DNA from: Adlercreutzia hattorii
Lineage (GTDB): Bacteria > Actinomycetota > Coriobacteriia > Coriobacteriales > Eggerthellaceae
Length of the DNA stretch: 64,000 bases
Reading direction: 5' to 3'
NCBI RefSeq assembly: GCF_011405655.1
Contig: NZ_AP022829.1
Span: 186,001-250,000, forward strand
The translations under genes and the position numbers were made by a program. The notes beneath the pieces are model-generated. The model was not told where the DNA came from. It saw only the letters and a list, made by a program, of their open reading frames with translations, and did no database searches. Positions 2,670-14,506 of the stretch are shown piece after piece. The number at the start of each line of letters is the position of its first letter. Position 1 is the stretch's first letter.

Positions 2670-3950
2670 GTGCCGGAAACGCTGACATTCATCCACGCTG
2701 CCGACCTGCACATCGGTGCGCCGTTTCGCGGCCTGAGGGCGCTGTCCGACGAGTGGGCGCGCCGTTTGGTTGACGCCATCCCCGGCGCTTGGGATCGCGT
2801 GGTGGAAGCAGCTGTGTCGCGCAAGGTCAATTTCGTGGTCGTTTCCGGCGACATCTTCGATTCGGTTCGCGCGTCCTATCGCGACTACCTGCGTTTCTTC
2901 GATGGGCTGAACCGCTTAGACGCGGAGGGCATTCCTTCCTACCTGTGCACCGGCAACCACGATCCGCTGAGTCTTTGGCAGCAGGATTTCTTCGCGTTGC
3001 CCCCGTCCGCCACGATGCTCGCCGCCGATCGTCCCGATTTCACCCTGTACGAGCGCGACGGGCGTCCCCTTGCGGTCATCGGAGGCCGCGGCTACCCGAA
3101 CAAGGTGTGGTCGCCCAACGAGAACATCGCCGAGGGTATCACCTGCGCCGCCGCCATTCGGGCACTGGGCCCGCGCGCCGCCGAGGCGCCTTTTGCGGTG
3201 GGCGTGCTGCACACCGGGCTTACGTTCGATCCTGTGAAGGCTCCCACCGACCCCGTGGCATTGCTGCGCGCCGGGTTCGACTACTGGGCACTCGGGCATA
3301 TTCACAAGCGGTGGGTCAACGATGAGCGCGCGCCGCGCATTGCGTTTTCCGGCTGCATTCAAGGGCGCGATGTGCGCGAAACGGGTCCGCGCGGTGTTAA
3401 CCTCGTCACGCTGGCGGTTGACGCGCCACCGAAGGTGAGCTTCATTCCCACGGCCTCGGTGGTGTGGGAAAAGGTTCGCATCGACGTCTCCGATTGCACG
3501 AACATTCCGGCTCTGGTGTCCAAAACCATGCGGGAGCTGTTCGCGGTCAACGGCGACGCCTCCTGCGAGATGATGGTGTCGCGCATCATTCTCACCGGAG
3601 CGACCTCCCTTCACGAGGTGCTCGGCCGCCCCGGGGTGCTGGAAGAGGTGCGCGCCTCTTTGAACGATGCGTACTCGGAATTCTACTGCGATAGTCTCAT
3701 CGACGAGACAACGGCTCCCATCGATGAAGAGGCGTTGCGCGCCGAGGGGCTGTTCCCAGCGGTGTTTCTTCGCACCGTTGATCGGCTCTCCGAGGATGTC
3801 GAAGGGCAGATCGACTATTTACAGGAAGAATACCTCGCGCGCAACGTTCCCCTTACGGCGGCGCTTTCCGAGAAGAAGGCGCGTCAGCTCACGGACGAGG
3901 CTGCCCGGCTTGTGCTCGACTTGCTGCTGCAGGGGGGCGACGACCGATGA
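2670..3950 (+). CDS. YhaO/SbcD-type metallophosphoesterase (DNA repair exonuclease)
   Basis: 426 residues starting at GTG. The N-terminal calcineurin-like phosphoesterase domain shows the metal-binding motifs in order: HAADLHIG near residue 9, GDIFD near 60, GNHD near 94, and GHIHKRW near 209. This is the Mre11/SbcD nuclease core. The paired gene downstream has internal membrane segments rather than a zinc hook, so the pair resembles Bacillus YhaO-YhaN more than SbcD-SbcC. The genes overlap in an ATGA, which implies translational coupling and a joint complex. It starts only 9 bp after dnaB and is probably in the same transcript. Confidence 0.85.
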   Translation: MPETLTFIHAADLHIGAPFRGLRALSDEWARRLVDAIPGAWDRVVEAAVSRKVNFVVVSGDIFDSVRASYRDYLRFFDGLNRLDAEGIPSYLCTGNHDPLSLWQQDFFALPPSATMLAADRPDFTLYERDGRPLAVIGGRGYPNKVWSPNENIAEGITCAAAIRALGPRAAEAPFAVGVLHTGLTFDPVKAPTDPVALLRAGFDYWALGHIHKRWVNDERAPRIAFSGCIQGRDVRETGPRGVNLVTLAVDAPPKVSFIPTASVVWEKVRIDVSDCTNIPALVSKTMRELFAVNGDASCEMMVSRIILTGATSLHEVLGRPGVLEEVRASLNDAYSEFYCDSLIDETTAPIDEEALRAEGLFPAVFLRTVDRLSEDVEGQIDYLQEEYLARNVPLTAALSEKKARQLTDEAARLVLDLLLQGGDDR

Positions 3951-6172
3951 CCGAGCCGCGCATCTACCTTCGCTCTATCCACTTGGAGCGCTTCGGCCGC
4001 TTTCACGATACGGTGGTCGGGCCCTTCAGCGATCGCATGAACATCGTCCTCGGCGCCAACGAGGCGGGCAAGACGACCGTGGCCTCCTTTGTGGGCGGCG
4101 TGCTGTTCGGTTGGGAAGAGGCTCGAGGAAACCGGAACACCTACAAGCCCGAGGGGGCCGAGCGAGCGGGCTCGCTGCTTTTCGCGCGGTCGGCGGGGGC
4201 GGACGCGAGCGCGGGTGCGAGGGAAGACGAGGAGACGTTCGTGCTTTCCCGCGCCCGCAATGCCGACGGCCTGCAGGGAGACACCTTCCTGGTGGAAGAC
4301 ATCGACAAGGACACCTATCGCACGATGTTTTCCCTGAACAGCGATGAATTGCGCTCGCTGCGCAACACGACGGACACGACGGCGAAGTTGCTGACGGCCG
4401 GTTCGGGCACAGGTTCGTCGCCGGCCCACGCCCTCGCTCATGTGAACGAGCGCTTGGCGGCATTCACCTCCCGCGCCGCCTCGGCCGAGCAGTCGATCCC
4501 CCAGCTTCTGGCCCGGCGCAACGCCCTGCGTGCCGAGCAGCAAAGCGCGGCTGACGTCGCCGATGCCTATCGTGCCCAAGATCGCGAGCTGCACGAGCTG
4601 GAGCCCGAGCGCGCCGCCATGGGGGAGCGGGTGGAAGAGGCCAACCGCGTGATTGAGGCGCTCACCATGGCCAAAAGTTCTCTGGCGGCTCTGGATGCCG
4701 AACGCGACAAGCTTAAGGGGGATATCGCCCGGCTGGCCAAGAGCGAGGAGGAGGCAGCCAACAACTACGAACTTCACGAGCGTTCCTGCGGGCGCCGCCT
4801 CGCCCGCCTGACGGCCTCCGACGAGCGGGCCTTGCGTGACCGCTTGGAAAACCTCGCGACCCGTCAATCGCGGCAGGCCCATGCCGTGGAGGTGGCTCGC
4901 GCGAACTACACATCCTCCGTGGCAGTGTACGAGGCTCTGCAGGAAACGGCCGACGATGAGGCCGATCGCCGCAGCGAGCGATCGAAGAGGCGCATTCAGG
5001 TGGCATTCTGCGTGGTCATTCCCGCCGTGCTGTTTCTTCTGGGCGTCCCTCTTTTCATCGAGGGCCGTGCCCGCGGTGCTCTCAGCTATATGGCCATCGG
5101 ATTTCTCCTCTCCGTCTTCGCGGCGCTCATGGCCACCGGCGGCTTCGCCATGTTGTTCCGGCCGAACAAGGAGGAAGGCGCCCGCAAAGCCCGTTTCGAC
5201 GACGCCCATTGGGTGATGATCCAGGATAAGAAGAAGCTGGAAGCGTGCCAGGCTGAGGAGGGATCGGTGGCCGCGCAGGTACGCGAGGCGCTGGATGAAG
5301 AAGGGCTGGGCGAGGCCCAAGGGTCGGTGCGCCAGGCTCGGGCACTTCTTGACGAGGCCCGCGAGGCACGTCAGGCCATGGCGCTGTGTCGTCAGCGCCA
5401 GCAAGCGGCGGCCGCTCGGCGAGCGGATGCCGAGCATCGCCTTCAGGAAATCGCCTCTGAACGGGCGGCGGCGCTTCAGCGCGCTGGATTGTCGCCTGAA
5501 AGCGGGGTAGGCGATGTCGAGGAGGAGCTCGAGCGGCGCGTTCGCCAGCGCACGGGGCTCATTGAGGCGCTGGAGTCCATGAACCAGCGAGCAGGGGAGT
5601 TGGCCGCTGTCCTCGCCCAAGCCGAAACGGAGCGCGACTTCGATCGCATCAAAATTGAGGTGCAGGAAGTGACCACGCGCTTGGAAGAGGCGCGCACCGA
5701 TTTCGCGCGATTGCTTCTGGCCAAGCACATGCTGGAGGCGGCCATTGCCACCTGGGAATCGAAGCGCCAGCCAGAGGTGTATCTGCGGGCGAGCCGGTTG
5801 CTGTCCCTCATGACCGAAGGGCGGTGGACTCGCGTGAGCCTTACGCGCGAGGGCACTCTGGAGGTAGCCGACGCCCTCGGGCGCACGCGCCAGCCGGTGC
5901 ATTTGTCCCTCGGCACGTGCCAGCAACTGTACCTGGCCCTGCGTATTGCGCTTCTTACCTGCGCCGATAACGTGGGGAGGGCCATTCCCATCCTCGCCGA
6001 CGACATTCTCGTGAATTTCGACGAGCAGCGCCGGCTGGGGGCCGCCCGCGCTTTGGTGGAACTGTCGGAGCAGCGCCAGGTCATTCTCTTCACCTGTCAC
6101 GAAGGGGTCGCGAGGGCCTTGAAGAAGACCGCGAAGCAATCAGGACGCCCGGCGACGGTGATCAACTTATAG
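3947..6172 (+). CDS. YhaN-type SMC-like ATPase, partner of the upstream phosphoesterase
   Basis: 741 residues. Walker A GANEAGKTT is at about residues 36-44. The C-terminal half of the ABC-type nucleotide-binding domain has a signature-like LSLGTCQQLYLALRI and the Walker B region ILADDILVNFDE near residue 690. The Ala/Glu/Arg-rich segments between are predicted coiled coil. In the middle are two hydrophobic helices (about 350-368 and 378-405) where Rad50/SbcC proteins carry a zinc hook. Membrane-spanning middle regions are known from the YhaN group. It likely works with the upstream nuclease on DNA ends near the membrane. Its 3' end overlaps a converging small gene by 6 bp. Confidence 0.85.
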   Translation: MTEPRIYLRSIHLERFGRFHDTVVGPFSDRMNIVLGANEAGKTTVASFVGGVLFGWEEARGNRNTYKPEGAERAGSLLFARSAGADASAGAREDEETFVLSRARNADGLQGDTFLVEDIDKDTYRTMFSLNSDELRSLRNTTDTTAKLLTAGSGTGSSPAHALAHVNERLAAFTSRAASAEQSIPQLLARRNALRAEQQSAADVADAYRAQDRELHELEPERAAMGERVEEANRVIEALTMAKSSLAALDAERDKLKGDIARLAKSEEEAANNYELHERSCGRRLARLTASDERALRDRLENLATRQSRQAHAVEVARANYTSSVAVYEALQETADDEADRRSERSKRRIQVAFCVVIPAVLFLLGVPLFIEGRARGALSYMAIGFLLSVFAALMATGGFAMLFRPNKEEGARKARFDDAHWVMIQDKKKLEACQAEEGSVAAQVREALDEEGLGEAQGSVRQARALLDEAREARQAMALCRQRQQAAAARRADAEHRLQEIASERAAALQRAGLSPESGVGDVEEELERRVRQRTGLIEALESMNQRAGELAAVLAQAETERDFDRIKIEVQEVTTRLEEARTDFARLLLAKHMLEAAIATWESKRQPEVYLRASRLLSLMTEGRWTRVSLTREGTLEVADALGRTRQPVHLSLGTCQQLYLALRIALLTCADNVGRAIPILADDILVNFDEQRRLGAARALVELSEQRQVILFTCHEGVARALKKTAKQSGRPATVINL

Positions 6173-6382
6173 GTTAAACGGGTGTGGCTGCATGAACTCA
6201 GTCACCAGAAAGACCACGAAGGACAGCACGAGCAGAATCCCCACAACGATGCTGAAGATGCGCCGGTTGCGCTGCAGGCGTCGCAGTGCCGTGCGCCTTA
6301 CGAAGGCCCGATCGCCCTCGGGCGTGCCCAGGGGAGGATCTGCCGCAGGGGGCGTGCGGCGCGGTGGCTGGTTGTCGGTCAT
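6167..6382 (-). CDS. Small single-pass membrane protein, function unknown
   Basis: 71 residues on the reverse strand. A Pro/Arg-rich N-terminus is followed by a basic stretch (RRTALRRLQRNRR) and one strongly hydrophobic helix (IFSIVVGILLVLSFVVFLV), then a short C-terminus. The basic-then-hydrophobic layout suggests an N-in single membrane anchor. An AAGGA site lies 6-7 bp before the ATG, which supports translation. It converges on the yhaN-like gene with a 6-bp overlap. I do not recognise a family. Confidence 0.65.
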   Translation of the reverse strand: MTDNQPPRRTPPAADPPLGTPEGDRAFVRRTALRRLQRNRRIFSIVVGILLVLSFVVFLVTEFMQPHPFNL

Positions 6383-6466
6383 GTAGGGTCCTTCGCAAGC
6401 GGAAGCGTCTTAACTCCGTAAATCTTAGCACGAAGCCCTCCATTCCGAAGCATTAGCCTGTGCGGC

Positions 6467-6475
6467 TGGTATACT
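6467..6475 (+). promoter_or_regulatory. Extended -10 promoter for purA
   Basis: TGG followed by TATACT forms an extended -10 element about 60 bp before the purA ATG. No good -35 hexamer is visible at 17 bp, which is common for extended -10 promoters. Confidence 0.45.
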
Positions 6476-6535
6476 GAGCCCTTGCGGAATGTCGTTTTCA
6501 GGGCATTCCCCGCCCAACGTCGAAAGGACTTGAAG

Positions 6536-7861
6536 ATGCCCAGCACAGTGCTCGTCGGCGCCCAGTGGGGCGACGAAGGCAAGGGTAAGATCACCGACCT
6601 CATCGCCAGCGACTACGATTACGTGGTGCGCTTCCAGGGAGGCAATAACGCCGGCCACACCGTCATTCACGGCGACAAGAAGCTGGCGCTGCACCTGATG
6701 CCCTCCGGGGTCATGTACGAGAACGCCGTGCCGGTCATCGGCAACGGCGTCGTGGTAGACCCGGGCGTGCTCGTGAAGGAAATGGCCATGCTTGAGGCCG
6801 AGGGCATCTCCTGCAAGAACCTGAAGATTTCCAACGACGCGCACCTTATCATGCCGTACCACAAGGATCTCGATGGCGCCGACGAGAAGAGCCTCGGCGA
6901 CAAGAAGATCGGCACCACCAAACGCGGCATCGGCCCCTGCTACCAGGACAAGATGGGTCGCAAGGGCATCCGCATGCAGGACTTGCTGGACGAGAAGATC
7001 TTCCGCCTGAAGCTTGAGGCGGTGCTGGCCCAGAAGAACCCCATCTTGGAGAAGATTTACGGTCTGCACACCTACACGGTGGAGGAGATCTGCGACGAGT
7101 ACCTGCCTTACGCGCGCATTCTGGCTCCCTATGTGTGCGAGTCGGCCCATATGCTGAACGAGGCGCTGGGCGATGGGAAGTCCATCCTCTTCGAAGGCGC
7201 CCAGGGCACGCTGCTCGACATCGACCATGGCACCTACCCGTTCGTGACCTCGTCCAGCTGCTGCGCCGGCGGCGCCTCCACGGGCACGGGCGTCGGCCCC
7301 AAGGCCATCGACCGCGTGCTGGGCATTCAGAAGGCCTACATCACCCGCGTGGGGGAGGGCCCCTTCCCCACGGAGCTGAAGTTCCCCGAGAACGGCGGCA
7401 CCGGTCAGGATGCGGAGGACGGCGAGCTTCTGTGCGCCGCCGGTCATGAGTTCGGCGTCACCACGGGTCGCAAGCGCCGCTGCGGCTGGTTCGATGCCGT
7501 CATCGGGCGCTACGCCGCCGAGGTGAACGGGCTTACGGACGTGGCCCTCACGAAGCTGGACGTGCTTTCGGCCTTCGACACCATCAAGGTGTGCGTGGCC
7601 TACGAATGCGACGGCGTGCGCTACGACTACTTCCCCATGCAGCAATCGGTGCTGCACCACGCGAAGCCCATTTACGTGGAGCTGCCCGGCTGGAAAGACG
7701 AGGACATCACCGGTTGCCGCACCTACGAGGAGCTGCCGGAGAACACGCGCAAGTACATCGAGTATTTGGAAGAGGTGTGCGGCGTGCCCATGAGCATCAT
7801 CTCGGTTGGCCCCGATCGCGACCAGACGATTATCCGCATGTCCTGGTTGAGGGACGAGTAG
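6536..7861 (+). CDS. purA: Adenylosuccinate synthetase
   Basis: 441 residues. It catalyses GTP-dependent condensation of IMP and aspartate, the first committed step from IMP to AMP. The N-terminus carries the family signature [14 protein letters not shown], then [10 protein letters not shown], and the GTP/IMP-site segments TTKRGIGP and [13 protein letters not shown]. The ATG at 6536 is chosen because GAAAGGA lies 8 bp before it and the protein starts as in homologues. An in-frame upstream ATG at 6482 lacks both. purD follows after a 190-bp gap holding a very long hairpin. Confidence 0.96.
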
Positions 7862-7877
7862 CTTTTACCTGCTGTCC

Positions 7878-8007
7878 GGGCGCGTCCCCCCGAGAGGGGT
7901 GCCGTGCTCAGACAGATGCGAAATGCGCTCATCCGATTCCGGCTCGCGGAATCGTGGGGCGCACTTCGCATAACTGCGCGCGGCACCCCTCCCGGGGGGA
8001 CGCGCCC
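7878..8007. repeat. 130-bp long imperfect inverted repeat between purA and purD
   Basis: The outer arms at 7878-7904 and 7981-8007 are 27 bp each and complementary with one mismatch. Inside are a second pair, ATGCGAAATGCGC at 7916 against GCGCACTTCGCAT ending at 7971 (one mismatch), and a central CGATTCCG / CGGAATCG hairpin. The whole can fold into one nested hairpin with small internal loops. It carries no coding potential that I can see. It could be a miniature transposable element, a transcript-stabilising structure or a small RNA; the sequence does not decide. Confidence 0.75.
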
Positions 8008-8051
8008 TACGCTAAGAAACAACTTGCTGCAAAGCGAGGAAAGGAACGAAC

Positions 8052-9344
8052 GTGAACATTCTGCTGATCGGTTCGGGTGGGCGCGAACATGCCATCGCGT
8101 GGGCGCTGCAGAAGTCTCCGAACACCGACGTGCTGTACGTGGCGCCGGGCAACGGCGGCACGGCGGAAATCGCCGAGAACGTCGATCTGGATATCGCCGA
8201 CGGCGAGGCGCTGCTGAGTTTCGTGCACGAGCGCAACATCGGGCTGGTGGTCATCGGCCCTGAGGCACCGCTGGTCGATGGCGTGGCCGATCTGCTGCGC
8301 GCCGACGGCGTCCCGGTATTCGGGCCCAACGCCGACGGCGCTCAGCTGGAAGGCTCCAAGGCCTATTCCAAGGCATTCATGGAAGCCAACGATATTCCCA
8401 CGGCCGCTTACGGGCGCTTCGACGACGAGGCCGCTGCGCTTGCCTACGTGCGCGAGCAGGGCGCGCCCATTGTCATCAAGGCTGACGGCCTGGCGGCGGG
8501 CAAGGGCGTTGTGGTGGCCGAAACCGTGGAAGATGCCGAGGCTGCCGTGCGCGCCTGCTTCGACGGTGCCTTCGGCGATGCCGGCTCCACCGTGGTCATC
8601 GAGGAGTGCATGACGGGCCCCGAATGCTCGCTTCTGTGCTTCGTCACCGCCGGACAGTCGTTCCCCATGGCCCCCGCCCAGGATCACAAGCGCGCCTACG
8701 ACGGCGACTTGGGCCCCAACACCGGCGGCATGGGCGTGTACTCGCCGGTGCCCATCGTCACCGACGAGGAAATGGCTGCCATGGTGGCCATCATGGAGAA
8801 AGCGGCCGCCGCTACGGCCGTTGCTCCCTTCACCAGCGACTATCGCGGCACCCTGTACGGCGGCTTCATGCTGACCCCGGAAGGCCCGAAGATCGTGGAG
8901 TTCAACGTGCGCTTCGGCGACCCTGAGACGCAGGTCGTGCTGCCCCGCTTGGAAAGCGATCTGGTGGAGATCATGCTCGCGGTGGCCGAGGGGCGCCCCG
9001 AGGACGTGCAGCTGGAGTGGTCCGACGACTGGGCCGTTTCCGTGGTGCTTGCCAGTGAGGGGTACCCGGGCGCTTACGAAAAGGGCAAGGTCATCTTGGG
9101 CATCGAAGAGGCCGAGGAGCTGCCCGGCGTGACGGTTTTCCATGCGGGTACTCGCCGCAACTACGATGGCGAGCTGCTCACCAACGGCGGTCGCGTGCTG
9201 AATGTGGTGGCCAAAGGCGACGGCTTCGAAGAGGCTCGCGAGCGCGCCTACGAGGCCTGCGACCTCATCAACTTCGAAGGCAAGATGTACCGCCACGACA
9301 TCGGCAAGAAAGCTTTGCAGGGCCGCAGCGCGTGGGATCAATAG
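8052..9344 (+). CDS. purD: Phosphoribosylamine-glycine ligase (GAR synthetase)
   Basis: 430 residues starting at GTG with a GAGGAAAGGA site upstream. It makes glycinamide ribonucleotide, the second step of purine synthesis. The N-terminal domain opens MNILLIGSGGREHAIAWAL and APGNGGT. The ATP-grasp domain has KADGLAAGKGVVVA, DHKRAYDGDLGPNTGGMG (metal/ATP site) and EFNVRFGDPETQ. All are intact. It lies downstream of purA, but the intervening hairpin probably separates or modulates the two transcripts. Confidence 0.96.
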   Translation: MNILLIGSGGREHAIAWALQKSPNTDVLYVAPGNGGTAEIAENVDLDIADGEALLSFVHERNIGLVVIGPEAPLVDGVADLLRADGVPVFGPNADGAQLEGSKAYSKAFMEANDIPTAAYGRFDDEAAALAYVREQGAPIVIKADGLAAGKGVVVAETVEDAEAAVRACFDGAFGDAGSTVVIEECMTGPECSLLCFVTAGQSFPMAPAQDHKRAYDGDLGPNTGGMGVYSPVPIVTDEEMAAMVAIMEKAAAATAVAPFTSDYRGTLYGGFMLTPEGPKIVEFNVRFGDPETQVVLPRLESDLVEIMLAVAEGRPEDVQLEWSDDWAVSVVLASEGYPGAYEKGKVILGIEEAEELPGVTVFHAGTRRNYDGELLTNGGRVLNVVAKGDGFEEARERAYEACDLINFEGKMYRHDIGKKALQGRSAWDQ

Positions 9345-11605: not shown

Positions 11606-11619
11606 ACTGAGCACCAAAC

Positions 11620-11650
11620 ATGAGTCGAGGGGGCATTCCCCCCGACTCAT
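11620..11650. terminator. Hairpin between converging genes
   Basis: ATGAGTCGAGGGG pairs with CCCCCGACTCAT around a short loop. It sits between the prepilin peptidase and the reverse-strand ATPase, whose stop codon adjoins it. It has no strong T-run on either side, so it is a weak or bidirectional terminator at best. Confidence 0.5.
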
Positions 11651-12747
11651 CACTCATTCCGTTTGCGAAGGTGCTCGGCGAGGAAGGGGACGTCGAAAGC
11701 GACCTTTCCCCGGCCGGCGCTTTTGATGACGCCGCCCTCAATGAGCCGTCGACGGTATTTCTGCGCATAGTCGACCGTTGCACCCATGGCCTCAGCGATG
11801 GCGGCTATAGGCGCAGGATCTCCCAGTACGGCCATAGCTTCAAGAAAGTTTACGTCGCGTTCAGAAAGAGCGGCGAGCGTGGTGGCGCAGACGTCACTTT
11901 GGAAATCATCGCCCGAGGTTCGGAGCGCTTCGGCGAGGCTTTCTTCAGACACCTTGCCGTTTTCAGCATAGAGACAGGTGTAATGCCCCACAAGCTGAAG
12001 AAGATAGGGACTGCCAGCGGTGTACGCCGCCGCGTCACGGCGCAGATCGCTTGCTATAGCGATGCCAAGAGAGTCGAACGATCGCTTGAAGAAGGCATCC
12101 ACTTCCCCCTGCTCCAGCGGAGGAAGAGTAATCTTCCGCGCTCGGTTGAGGAACGTGAGCACTCTGTCGTTGAGCGTTGTGGAAACAGCTCCCGGCAGAC
12201 CGGCCATAACAAGGGACACATTCAGCCTCTCGCCCACCATTTCCTGGTAGGTGCCGATGAGGTGACGAACCTCCGGCGACGAGGCCTGCAGTTCATCTAT
12301 CAGGATAAGCGCCCCCCGATCTTTTGCAGTGAGTTGGCGGCACAGTTGCACGAGTCGCTGTTGGGGGCTTTTGGTTGTTGCCGCGTCCCTCTCTAGTTGG
12401 ATGCCCGCTGAGAAACCGAGCGCTCCTACGCTGCCGCCGGTGAGATGCAGCTTTCCGTCTGCAGATAGCTGACAGTCGTCCTCGAGCTTTTCGAGAATGC
12501 GCTCAAGCATGCCATCTGAGACAATGGTGGGGTTGGCCACGGCGAACCCCTGCTTTCGCATGCGGTCAGCCAGCTCCCAAAGAAGCACCGTCTTCCCGCT
12601 TCCTCGCTGGCCCAGTATCACAACAGCTCGCTCGCGGCTGCCCGGCCGCGATTGAAGGCCCTGCTCCAACTGGTCGAGTAGCTGTTCACGGCCCACCAGG
12701 AAAGAAGGGCGGTTACCGAAGGAGGGGGAGAACACCTCGTCATACAT
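11650..12747 (-). CDS. AAA ATPase with C-terminal winged-helix-like region (ORC/Cdc6-like), function unknown
   Basis: 365 residues. Walker A GQRGSGKT is at 46-53 and Walker B ALILIDELQ at 146-154, then a sensor-like LVMAGLPG. The tail after residue 280 (SERDVNFLEAMAVLGDPAPIAAIAEAMG) resembles a winged helix. Stand-alone ATPases of this type occur in mobile or defence neighbourhoods, but no substrate is known. It is divergent from another ATPase gene across a repeat-filled 296-bp region. A good promoter and three 19-bp repeats lie directly upstream, which suggests controlled, perhaps self-regulated, expression. Confidence 0.75.
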   Translation of the reverse strand: MYDEVFSPSFGNRPSFLVGREQLLDQLEQGLQSRPGSRERAVVILGQRGSGKTVLLWELADRMRKQGFAVANPTIVSDGMLERILEKLEDDCQLSADGKLHLTGGSVGALGFSAGIQLERDAATTKSPQQRLVQLCRQLTAKDRGALILIDELQASSPEVRHLIGTYQEMVGERLNVSLVMAGLPGAVSTTLNDRVLTFLNRARKITLPPLEQGEVDAFFKRSFDSLGIAIASDLRRDAAAYTAGSPYLLQLVGHYTCLYAENGKVSEESLAEALRTSGDDFQSDVCATTLAALSERDVNFLEAMAVLGDPAPIAAIAEAMGATVDYAQKYRRRLIEGGVIKSAGRGKVAFDVPFLAEHLRKRNE

Positions 12748-12750
12748 AGT

Positions 12751-12807
12751 TTTCCTTTCTTTCCTTTGTTTTCCTTTCTTTCCTATTATTTCCTTTTTTT
12801 CCTATTT
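12751..12807 (-). repeat. Three tandem 19-bp repeats over the reverse promoter
   Basis: Three 19-bp units start at 12751, 12770 and 12789. Each holds two TTTCC blocks (GGAAA on the transcribed strand), giving six blocks spaced 9, 10, 9, 10, 9 bp, close to one helical turn. The array covers the -10, the start site and the leader of the reverse-strand ATPase gene, so it looks like an operator. Confidence 0.75.
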
Positions 12808-12812
12808 GTCAA
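12783..12812 (-). promoter_or_regulatory. Sigma-70 promoter of the reverse-strand ATPase gene
   Basis: On the reverse strand a perfect TTGACA (12807-12812) is followed after 17-18 bp by ATAATA/TAATAG (12783-12789). The start codon is about 36 bp downstream of the -10. The promoter is embedded in the 19-bp repeats. Confidence 0.7.
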
Positions 12813-12964
12813 AGTGACGGGTAATTCGCCCGCAGTGCTGCGGCCCCGGTGTCGCTGCTCAGCAGTAGGACATCAGCTCTCAGCTGCCGCTGATTTAGGG
12901 GTGTTTTGTCGCAGGGCTCCTTGAGAGGCCTTCTGCGAAGCGCCATTGGACTACAACCCACAAA

Positions 12965-13024
12965 TTCGGATTTTAGTAAATTTTAATTCGGATTTTGGTA
13001 AAATGAAACTCGGATTTTAGTAAA
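12965..13024 (+). repeat. Three direct repeats with exact 22-bp period upstream of the DUF4143 ATPase
   Basis: Copies of TTCGGATTTTAGTAAA start at 12965, 12987 and 13009 (third copy begins CTCGG; second has one A-to-G change). The period is exactly 22 bp, about two helical turns. The second copy contains an extended -10 (TGG TAAAAT at 12996-13004), and the third forms an inverted repeat with AATCCGAG at 13026-13033, next to the ribosome-binding site. This looks like an autoregulatory operator. Confidence 0.8.
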
Positions 13025-13043
13025 CAATCCGAGAGGAGTCACT

Positions 13044-14348
13044 GTGGGTCAAGCATCCGTCAAGCCCCAAGGATACCTTCCTCGCCTCGTTGATGAGCAG
13101 GTGGAACGTTGTCTGAGGATATTCGGCGCCGTGGAGATAGAGGGCACGAAGTGGTGCGGAAAGACATGGACGGCGCGGCAACATGGCGCCTCCATCAGCT
13201 ACGTGGACGAAGAGCTGTCCCTGGCGCAGGACGACCCCTCGCTCATGCTCATGGGGGAGCGCCCGCATGTCATTGACGAGTGGCAGCACGTACCCGCCAT
13301 CTGGAACCTCGTGCGCCATGGTGTTGACGAGACGAGGGGCCTACGGGGCGCCTGGATCCTCACGGGCTCTTCGACGCCGCCCAATCACCGCAGCGCGGCA
13401 GGGGAGGGGGATAAAAGGCACAGCGGCGCGGGGCGAATCGGCCGCATCAAGATGTCCCCTATGACGCTCTCCGAATCGGGGGAATCCGAGAAAAGCGTCT
13501 CTCTCGCCCGACTTTTCGAGGAACCCCCTGTTCCGGTTATCGTCGGGGGCAATACGGAGCAGCTCGTCGATGTGACCTGCCGGGGTGGCTGGCCTGAAGC
13601 AGTCGACCTTTCTCCCTTGGATGCCCAGGCGATTGTCCGCGAGTACCTCTCTGCGATCTGTTATGAGAGCGCTCCCGACCAAGGTCTTGATCCTTTTGTT
13701 GCCGAGCGCATCATCGCCTCGCTGGCTCGCAATTTGGGGCAGGCTGCCACCTATGGCACCATTAGGGAAGACGCCCTGGGGTCAACGGGAGACGACCTCG
13801 CCGATCGCCAAATCGGCGAGTATCTCAGCTTCTTCAATCGTATCTATCTTGTCTCGGAGGTTCCCGGCTGGGAGCCCCCGTCCCGCTCGAAGAAACGCCT
13901 GCAGGTCAAGCCGAAGCGGTATTTGGCAGACCCTTCGCTCGCCGTCGCAGCGCTCGGCATGTCGCCGGCTGTCCTGCTCGAGGATTGGCAGACGTTTGGA
14001 CTGGTTTTCGAGAACCTATGTCTTCGCGACCTCGTTGCATATACCCGTGCGCATGAGCTCGCCCGCCCTATTCCCGTTCGCTACTACCGCGATGACTCCG
14101 GGCTCGAGGTGGACGCCATCGTGGAGCTGGCGGACGGCCGTTGGGCCGCCTTCGAGATCAAGACGAGTGAAAGTAAGGTCGACCAGGCGGTTTCGAATCT
14201 CAAACGGCTTCGCAAGAAACTCTGCGAGAACCCCCGAGCTCAGACGAGGCCCCCAGCGTTCATGGCCGTTATCGTGGGCATAGGGAAGTACGCGCGCGTC
14301 GTTGAGGAGGGCATCTACGTTATACCCATTCGTGCGCTGACGGCATAA
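13044..14348 (+). CDS. ATP-binding protein, AAA_14 + DUF4143
   Basis: 434 residues starting at GTG with GAGAGGAG 5 bp upstream. The AAA_14 domain has Walker A EGTKWCGKT near residue 37 and HVIDEWQHVP as the Walker B region. The DUF4143 part holds RYLADPSLAVAALG and the restriction-nuclease-like segment DDSGLEVDAIVEL...AFEIKTSE near residues 350-380. This family is widespread in anaerobes, usually as stand-alone genes, and its biochemical role is not settled. The E-V-D...E-I-K arrangement suggests a PD-(D/E)XK-type nuclease fold. The upstream iterons point to tight regulation. Confidence 0.85.
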   Translation: MGQASVKPQGYLPRLVDEQVERCLRIFGAVEIEGTKWCGKTWTARQHGASISYVDEELSLAQDDPSLMLMGERPHVIDEWQHVPAIWNLVRHGVDETRGLRGAWILTGSSTPPNHRSAAGEGDKRHSGAGRIGRIKMSPMTLSESGESEKSVSLARLFEEPPVPVIVGGNTEQLVDVTCRGGWPEAVDLSPLDAQAIVREYLSAICYESAPDQGLDPFVAERIIASLARNLGQAATYGTIREDALGSTGDDLADRQIGEYLSFFNRIYLVSEVPGWEPPSRSKKRLQVKPKRYLADPSLAVAALGMSPAVLLEDWQTFGLVFENLCLRDLVAYTRAHELARPIPVRYYRDDSGLEVDAIVELADGRWAAFEIKTSESKVDQAVSNLKRLRKKLCENPRAQTRPPAFMAVIVGIGKYARVVEEGIYVIPIRALTA

Positions 14349-14364
14349 TGCGGCAAAAAAGTTC

Positions 14365-14430: not shown

Positions 14431-14506
14431 GGTCGGGTAGCTCAGTTGGTAGAGCAGCGGACTGAAAATCCGCGTGCCGAGGGTTCAAGTCCCCCTCCGA
14501 CCACCA
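14431..14506 (+). tRNA. tRNA-Phe (GAA)
   Basis: A full 76-nt cloverleaf: acceptor GGTCGGG/TCCGACC, D arm with AGCTCAGTTGGTAGAGC, anticodon loop CTGAAAA with GAA at 14464-14466, T arm with GGTTCAAGTCC, discriminator A and encoded CCA. A terminator follows 10 bp later. Confidence 0.97.

Follow-up and report, generated by a model that had tools for sequence, protein, structure and literature searches.

Two ATPase genes stand back to back in the chromosome of Adlercreutzia hattorii, and the region between them contains two different arrays of short direct repeats, one upstream of each gene. What reads these repeats, and with what effect on the genes that they precede? The locus lies in a 64,000-nucleotide stretch of DNA, here called the window (contig NZ_AP022829.1, positions 186,001 to 250,000), and its features are listed in Table 1.

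Table 1. Features of the locus, with positions counted from the first nucleotide of the window
Feature	Position	Strand	Basis
2.75-kb insertion with both ATPase genes, flanked by pilD and the promoter of tRNA-Phe	11606..14354	.	Empty site in same-genus genomes
365-aa ATPase of the AAA_16 (ATPase_2-like) type, winged helix at the C terminus	11650..12747	-	Domain match; model pLDDT 86
Operator-like repeats upstream of the AAA_16 gene: three 19-bp units containing six GGAAA blocks with 9-10 bp spacing	12751..12802	-	
Sigma-70-type promoter of the AAA_16 gene, TTGACA-16-AATAAT	12785..12812	-	Consensus scan, 11/12 matches
Operator-like repeats upstream of the DUF4143 gene: three copies with a period of 22 bp, AATTCGGATTTTAGTAAATTTT	12963..13028	+	
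Possible extended -10, TGGTAAAAT, within the middle 22-bp repeat	12996..13004	+	By eye only
Inverted repeat CTCGGAT (13009-13015) / ATCCGAG (13027-13033), ahead of the RBS	13009..13033	+	
AAA_14-DUF4143 ATPase/nuclease-like protein, 434 aa, PADLOC PDC-S01	13044..14348	+	Domain and PADLOC matches; AlphaFold mean pLDDT 90
Codon for residue 255, which opens helix H254-266 and covaries with repeat bases 16-17	13806..13808	+	
Codons for residues 351 and 352, which lie in a loop flanked by two strands of the PD-(D/E)XK-like domain; 351 covaries with base 7, 352 with base 5 (less sure)	14094..14099	+	
Putative catalytic D357, E371, K373	14112..14162	+	Conservation in 118 sequences
tRNA-Phe(gaa), conserved gene next to the insertion spot	14431..14506	+	

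Two ATPase genes and their upstream arrays

The product of the plus-strand gene matches DUF4143 (PF13635) with 99.1 bits, against a gathering score of 28.1, and the PADLOC model PDLC04790 of the candidate defence family PDC-S01 with E = 7.7e-55; PDC-S01 models also match all 15 members of a set of its relatives (set A1). In an alignment of 118 DUF4143 relatives, D357 and E371 are kept in every sequence and K373 in 117, a D...ExK arrangement that we take to be the PD-(D/E)XK nuclease motif, with these three as putative catalytic residues. The predicted fold of this protein is closest, among solved structures, to 2qen (Z 15.4, 250 aligned residues, 4.3 A), followed by 2fna, RPP1 and CED-4, and a Foldseek search, with TM-scores of at most 0.42 on the query, likewise placed plant NLRs and CED-4 among the best matches, with Orc1/Cdc6 also high. 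2qen, 2fna, CED-4 and the NB domains of plant NLRs are of the STAND type. A solved sequence relative was also sought with a profile of the DUF4143 relatives against the PDB, which yielded only two chance-level hits (E 0.12 and 0.52).

The model of the AAA_16 protein has 2qen, archaeal Cdc6/Orc1 and 2fna as its closest folds. This protein gave nothing above cut-off in NCBIfam and weak matches in PADLOC, the best with E = 5e-4. As for the defence module tentatively suggested in the initial annotation, the DUF4143 gene matches a candidate family, and its neighbour has only these weak PADLOC matches. Elsewhere in the window, an AAA_27/SMC-like ATPase of 741 aa is encoded at 3947-6172.

The array of the AAA_16 gene proved to be as first described, with six GGAAA blocks 9-10 bp apart in three 19-bp repeats; on the forward strand, the complementary TTTCC starts at 12751, 12760, 12770, 12779, 12789 and 12798 (spacings 9/10/9/10/9). 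The pattern TTTCCTTTNNTTTCCT, with up to two mismatches allowed, matches the window five times, always inside this array, with 0.12 matches expected. A promoter scan returned two sites, both on the minus strand, with 0.2 expected, and the array extends from the spacer of the AAA_16 promoter across the -10 element and on towards the start codon.

The three copies of the other array follow each other directly (12963-12984, 12985-13006 and 13007-13028), which bears out the reported 22-bp period. Sites matching TCGGATTTTRGTAAA at up to three mismatches number three in the window, all in this array and each with 0 mismatches, compared with a chance expectation of 0.65 and with at least three sites in 3 of 100 shuffles. 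The claim that both arrays overlap promoter elements stands for the AAA_16 gene, with its promoter at 11 of 12 consensus matches, and is weaker for the DUF4143 gene, for which the plus-strand scan was empty and TGGTAAAAT was picked out by eye. Helical phasing, also claimed for both arrays, is only approximate, given that 22-23 bp correspond to about 2.1-2.2 turns. The inverted repeat at the ribosome-binding site is present, but a hairpin formed by it is not unusual (z -1.5, with 13 of 200 shuffles folding equally well), and it was discarded as a candidate regulator.

Both genes arrived at a spot that varies within the genus. The purD-hemN-pilD-tRNA-Phe neighbourhood is readable in seven of eight same-genus relatives, and in all seven the ATPase pair is missing at the pilD/tRNA-Phe junction, an absence from related strains that had been proposed as a check and is found at this place. 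In L341-L343, the tRNA promoter region directly follows the pilD stop codon, and in L346-L348, the spot holds a short stretch without a match in the window segment. Because the spots of the relatives are either empty or otherwise filled, we regard the 2.75 kb with the two genes as a precise insertion into a variable spot. In another relative, L344, a 1102-aa open frame (4900-8206) is present there. The adjacent tRNA gene, to which the initial annotation drew attention, is the only one in the window and belongs to the conserved surroundings of the spot.

In 5 of 60 genomes, members of both families occur no more than about 2.5 kb apart, divergent here, in tandem in three and convergent in one (count and orientations assigned by eye). 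With so few neighbouring pairs, a varying orientation and absence from the seven readable relatives, the pair was rejected as a conserved module. What survives of the proposed compact self-regulating unit is a separate array for each ATPase and, as detailed below, covariation that supports self-reading by the DUF4143 protein, rather than the pair acting as one unit. As for an addiction module, a second component was not seen at the locus, and the two genes do not form a conserved unit.

Distribution of the arrays from paralogues to phyla

The genome, a single contig of 2.91 Mb, encodes six close DUF4143 relatives, including the window gene, and six AAA_16 relatives, the sixth of which is a fragment. 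All six DUF4143 paralogues have their own 22-23 bp array, each of a different sequence (for example, AACTCGGAAAAACATGAATCAAA, ATCCAACTTCCGTAATGAAAACG and CCAAAACTAGTAACAGGAATTTA). Clear arrays of 9-10/18-20 bp, again all different, precede four of the six AAA_16 genes, the remaining two being L014, where the array is weak, and the fragment L015. A 16-mer of the 22-bp repeat, allowing up to two mismatches, is confined to its own array in the 2.9-Mb genome; the repeat of L005 is similarly confined, and for these two repeats, the only ones searched, a regulon elsewhere in the genome was rejected. In total, PF13635 has 15 matches in this genome (G000) and 23 in G003, a strong lineage-specific expansion. 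At about 105500-105700 of G000:C1, an array with a period of about 30 bp lies between a DUF4143 gene of another subfamily and a truncated AAA_16 gene (L187/L193).

For a broader survey, 350 bp upstream of each gene were taken from 60 genomes of the same taxonomic family, and the highest-scoring repeat with three copies of 11 bases was sought at periods of 8-60, with a threshold of 26/33. A 22-23 bp array reached this threshold in 43 of the 64 DUF4143 genes, leaving 21 without an array above it; a single case was found among 51 AAA_16 genes, and likewise one among 211 control genes taken from genomes of this family. For periods of 9, 10 or 18-20 bp, the counts were 28 of 51 in the AAA_16 set, 2 of 64 in the DUF4143 set and 4 of 211 among the controls, and at 29 bp, 5 of the 51 AAA_16 genes and none of the 211 controls qualified. 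Dinucleotide shuffles scored 26 or more, at any period, in 0 of 1280 cases for DUF4143 and 2 of 1020 for AAA_16. Upstream regions of homologues, which the initial annotation had proposed to compare, contain arrays of like kind.

Several variants were noticed in the course of the survey. In a divergent AAA_16 subclade (L066, L123-L125 and L288), the units are 29 bp long, contain paired CAGTAAA-like boxes and lie shortly past a -35-like TTGAC(A/C) site. In L200 (G023:C41:70000-83000), four tandem P-loop genes of this kind have one array each, with periods of 23, 23, 23 and 11. We also considered divergence driven by incompatibility, under which arrays within a genome would be more unlike than those of different genomes at equal protein identity; this idea was dropped because the difference was not significant, with a permutation p of 0.09 (48 arrays, 46 within-genome pairs).

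Across bacteria and archaea, the sample drew on named genomes and comprised the 80 best-ranked of 553 confirmed loci; 79 of the 80 had enough upstream DNA. Among these best 80 of 553 loci, a 22-23 bp array scoring at least 26/33 precedes 68 of the 79 genes, and in a free search over 8-60 bp, 62 of the 67 genes that scored at least 27 had their best score at 23 bp. Within the same best 80, arrays occur in Actinomycetota, Bacillota, Bacteroidota, Spirochaetota, Oxalobacter and Fibrobacter as well as in seven of the eight testable archaeal loci, and the 11 of 79 genes without one include those of Acidimicrobiaceae, Longimicrobiales and Verrucomicrobia loci. Control windows elsewhere in these 80 of 553 loci reached the score in 5 of 770 cases, of which one lies ahead of another DUF4143 gene, one is a copy of the gene's own array placed downstream, and three are neither. 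All seven viral-contig loci have an array, two of them sharing one, and relatives of the two ATPases are few on plasmids (13 and 20 of 72,556 records). Over 118 arrays, with extension restricted to 22-24 bp, 306 of 316 intervals measure 23 bp; 68 arrays have three copies and 36 have four. In L252, from a Bacteroides MAG, a 300-nt direct repeat (2178-2477 and 3795-4094, 81% identical) that includes the array flanks the DUF4143 gene, possibly as the remnant of a tandem duplication.

These arrays are a property of subfamilies rather than of all DUF4143 or AAA_16 proteins, because only 3 of 30 loci from a phylum-wide PF13635 search reach 26/33 or more at 22-24 bp (with the first start codon taken as the gene start and four regions shorter than 300 bp) and because the threshold is not reached by any of the 16 AAA_16 genes taken outside the order. 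In another DUF4143 subfamily, near L196 (L355-L384; 30 loci fetched, 29 tested), arrays of 32-34 bp with differing sequences precede 17 of the 29 genes, compared with 0 of 211 controls.

Covariation of protein residues with repeat bases

The DUF4143 repeats, aligned as 23-mers by an EM register search, share a skeleton of about GCCAAAnnnnCCGAATnA, with the variable bases at about 5-8 and 13-17. Corrected mutual information was calculated for 417 protein columns and 17 bases, that is, 7089 pairs, among which residue 255 with bases 16 and 17 ranked first and second and residue 351 with base 7 third. In the AlphaFold model, the helix H254-266 is taken as the recognition helix of a winged helix-turn-helix, and the loop 351-352 adjoins the conserved D357, E371 and K373. 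The pairings 255/16 and 351/7 are chemically sensible. At position 255, aspartate goes with C at base 16 in 20 of 23 cases, lysine with G in 13 of 15, proline with A in 6 of 7 and, less strictly, glutamate with C in 12 of 20. At position 351, lysine goes with C at base 7 in 27 of 27 cases (G on the opposite strand), and aspartate and glutamate go with G in 25 of 26 and 6 of 6, respectively (C on the opposite strand). Residues 191 and 192 also scored high by mutual information, with (191,8) and (192,15) at ranks 4 and 7; the former pair was null among the sister pairs described next, and no claim is made for either residue.

As controls for relatedness, the covariation was examined at matched protein identity and in subsets. 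Base 16 is shared more often by pairs that share residue 255 in every identity bin (above 60% identity, 0.72 versus 0.23). Among 58 disjoint nearest pairs, 48 of which had called bases, (255,16) again ranked first of 7089, and the base is kept in 14 of 18 pairs with the same residue versus 5 of 30 with different residues; the p value of 4e-5 is uncorrected and becomes about 0.28, not significant, after correction for 7089 tests. In the same sister pairs, (351,7) ranked 30 and (352,5) 1261. The 70 cross-phylum arrays alone place (255,16), (351,7) and (352,5) at ranks 1, 2 and 10, and the 48 family arrays alone place (255,17) first, but (255,16) at rank 740 and (351,7) at rank 6669.

The residue-base code was fixed on the earlier set before it was applied to new genes. 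A search of 40 named genomes gave 47 new paralogues, of which 40, from 19 genomes, formed the held-out set, with the gene located for 36; these are paralogues in genomes that also contributed training genes, and the register model comes from the training set. An array scoring at least 26 precedes 32 of the 36. Base 7 was predicted correctly from residue 351 in 18 of 20 cases (baseline 0.45, p 3e-5), all of them with K or R at this position, D and E being absent from the predictions, and among 12 genes with other residues at 351, base 7 is C in one (Fisher p 7e-6). From residue 255, base 16 was predicted correctly in 11 of 15 cases (p 0.006; K/G 4/4, P/A 3/3, D/E to C 4/8). The rule linking residue 352 to base 5 failed, with 5 of 10 correct, which is not significant. 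Because of the covariation and the held-out prediction for 351/7 and 255/16, the DUF4143 protein very probably binds its own array.

For the AAA_16 family, array and protein similarities were compared in those 42 genes, out of 72, that had usable arrays. When overall identity is discounted, array similarity is followed most closely by ten protein windows, all of them in 289-345, the part of the protein with the winged helix; the best single position, F10, lies outside the winged helix. By eye, protein motifs and arrays pair up as YAQKYR with GGAAA, NYASQYKRRL with TGCAAAA, GHVSTYKKRL with GCTAA(A) and NEFNPYRQRL with CAGTAAA. These comparisons suggest that the AAA_16 protein probably reads its array in units of about 9.5 bp through the C-terminal winged helix, a reading with less support than that of the DUF4143 protein.

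Proposed self-regulation, alternatives and known systems

Judging from sequence comparison, we consider it probable that both of these STAND-like ATPases act as their own DNA-binding regulators, each reading its own array and most likely repressing its own gene. We infer physical binding in which the DUF4143 protein would occupy, side by side, at least three direct repeats spaced 22-23 bp apart upstream of its gene, most likely with one protomer per 23-bp repeat. The second half of the repeat would be read by the winged helix, through residue 255 at base 16, and the first half, about one helical turn away, by the loop of the nuclease-like domain, through residue 351 at base 7 and, less surely, residue 352 at base 5. 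The AAA_16 protein would do likewise with its own winged helix, and each paralogue would be insulated from the others by its private repeat sequence.

Since the promoter is covered or adjoined by the arrays, repression of the gene by its own bound product is the most likely outcome. Repression is favoured given that the AAA_16 array overlies a near-consensus promoter and that DUF4143 arrays often end near the best -10 match, which in 26 of 98 arrays of this class lies 24-29 bp beyond the point where the last repeat begins (a count taken without a shuffled control). The geometry makes autorepression of the DUF4143 gene likely. Placement of the last repeat just before the -10 element also suits activation, and it is possible, if considerably less probable, that the array serves as a site of activation or a platform for assembly, on which the ATPase oligomerises and switches the gene on, or that the locus mainly stores the protein. 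STAND-type proteins act as oligomers, and folds of this type are among the best matches of the DUF4143 model (2qen, 2fna, CED-4 and plant NLRs). The AAA_16 array, which covers the -10 element behind a near-consensus promoter, suits repression instead.

The position of the covarying loop, next to the conserved D357, E371 and K373, raises a different option, namely, that the array is the substrate of cleavage or recombination by the nuclease-like domain, as in an iteron- or transposon-like element, with regulation being secondary. Iterons are arrays of about the same size, the two genes form a precise insertion, and the gene in L252 is flanked by an 81% repeat of 300 nt that includes the array. 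We nevertheless find this unlikely: arrays are rare away from the gene's upstream region (5 of 770 windows), integrase or replication genes were not seen in the 2.75-kb insertion, and L252 is the only flanked case noticed. Recognition of the arrays by an unrelated host regulator is very improbable; binding by the ATPase is indeed deduced by comparing sequences, but six paralogues have six different arrays, the bases track residues of the ATPase, and the two repeats searched occur nowhere else in the genome. Chance or slippage in AT-rich upstream DNA, which does yield short tandem repeats, can practically be dismissed: none of the 1280 dinucleotide shuffles and a single one of the 211 control genes reached the threshold, one period of 23 bp recurs from archaea to bacteria, and 32 of 36 held-out genes have an array.

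Self-regulation through a private array can be extended, in a speculative and rather doubtful scheme, to the function of PDC-S01. This family would include STAND-like ATPase-nucleases pre-assembled on a private promoter array, the bases of which are read by the winged helix and the nuclease domain according to a co-evolving code, with each paralogue constituting its own 'immunity group'. Titration or remodelling of the complex during infection would then release expression and nuclease activity together.

Among proteins with comparable folds, the archaeal ATPases 2qen and 2fna are among the best matches for both window models, and CED-4 and the plant NLR NB domains for the DUF4143 model only. 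To our knowledge, array binding has not been described for 2qen, 2fna, CED-4 or plant NLRs. Repeats of about 20 bp are bound by archaeal Orc1/Cdc6, which combines an ATPase with a winged helix, and by the iteron Rep proteins of plasmids (PMC4980987), which read two half-sites; Orc1/Cdc6 origins and iterons differ from the window array, which fronts a single chromosomal gene.

PDC-S01, an ATPase fused to a PD-(D/E)XK domain, resembles the window protein by profile match, with protection against phage being a candidate function only. It is reported to rank as the fourth most common defence across prokaryotes and among the commonest defence candidates of bacteria and archaea, with tens of thousands of genes (PMC12988326), and, in a rumen survey, as the most frequent single locus (PMC13356809). 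Most such candidates await validation. Unlike the present analysis, these descriptions, in their accessible portions, make no mention of upstream arrays or self-recognition.

Repressors that control their own genes through direct repeats have precedents, also in defence islands. RptR, in an island with type I RM and DarTG2, is reported to repress its own promoter via three direct repeats that overlap the -10 element (PMC12255303). As described there, RptR is a helical dimer of 79 aa with a conserved TAGCTA site, whereas the regulator proposed here is the ATPase, with paralogues that have their own sites. The RepA proteins of repABC plasmids are reported to autorepress individual operons specifically (PMC4492784): as proposed here, paralogues in the same genome each repress their own operon, but these are ParA-type partition proteins on plasmids.

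In a literature search that left most subscription journals outside its coverage, we found no account of these arrays; the new element, relative to the literature searched, is a STAND-like ATPase-nuclease with a private, co-evolving array in its own promoter. The private array and the residue-to-base code give each protein a DNA target, and therefore binding, regulation and nuclease action are directly testable. The code would make gene-operator pairs predictable from sequence and, if the proposal is true, these families would constitute a large natural set of mutually insulated self-regulators.
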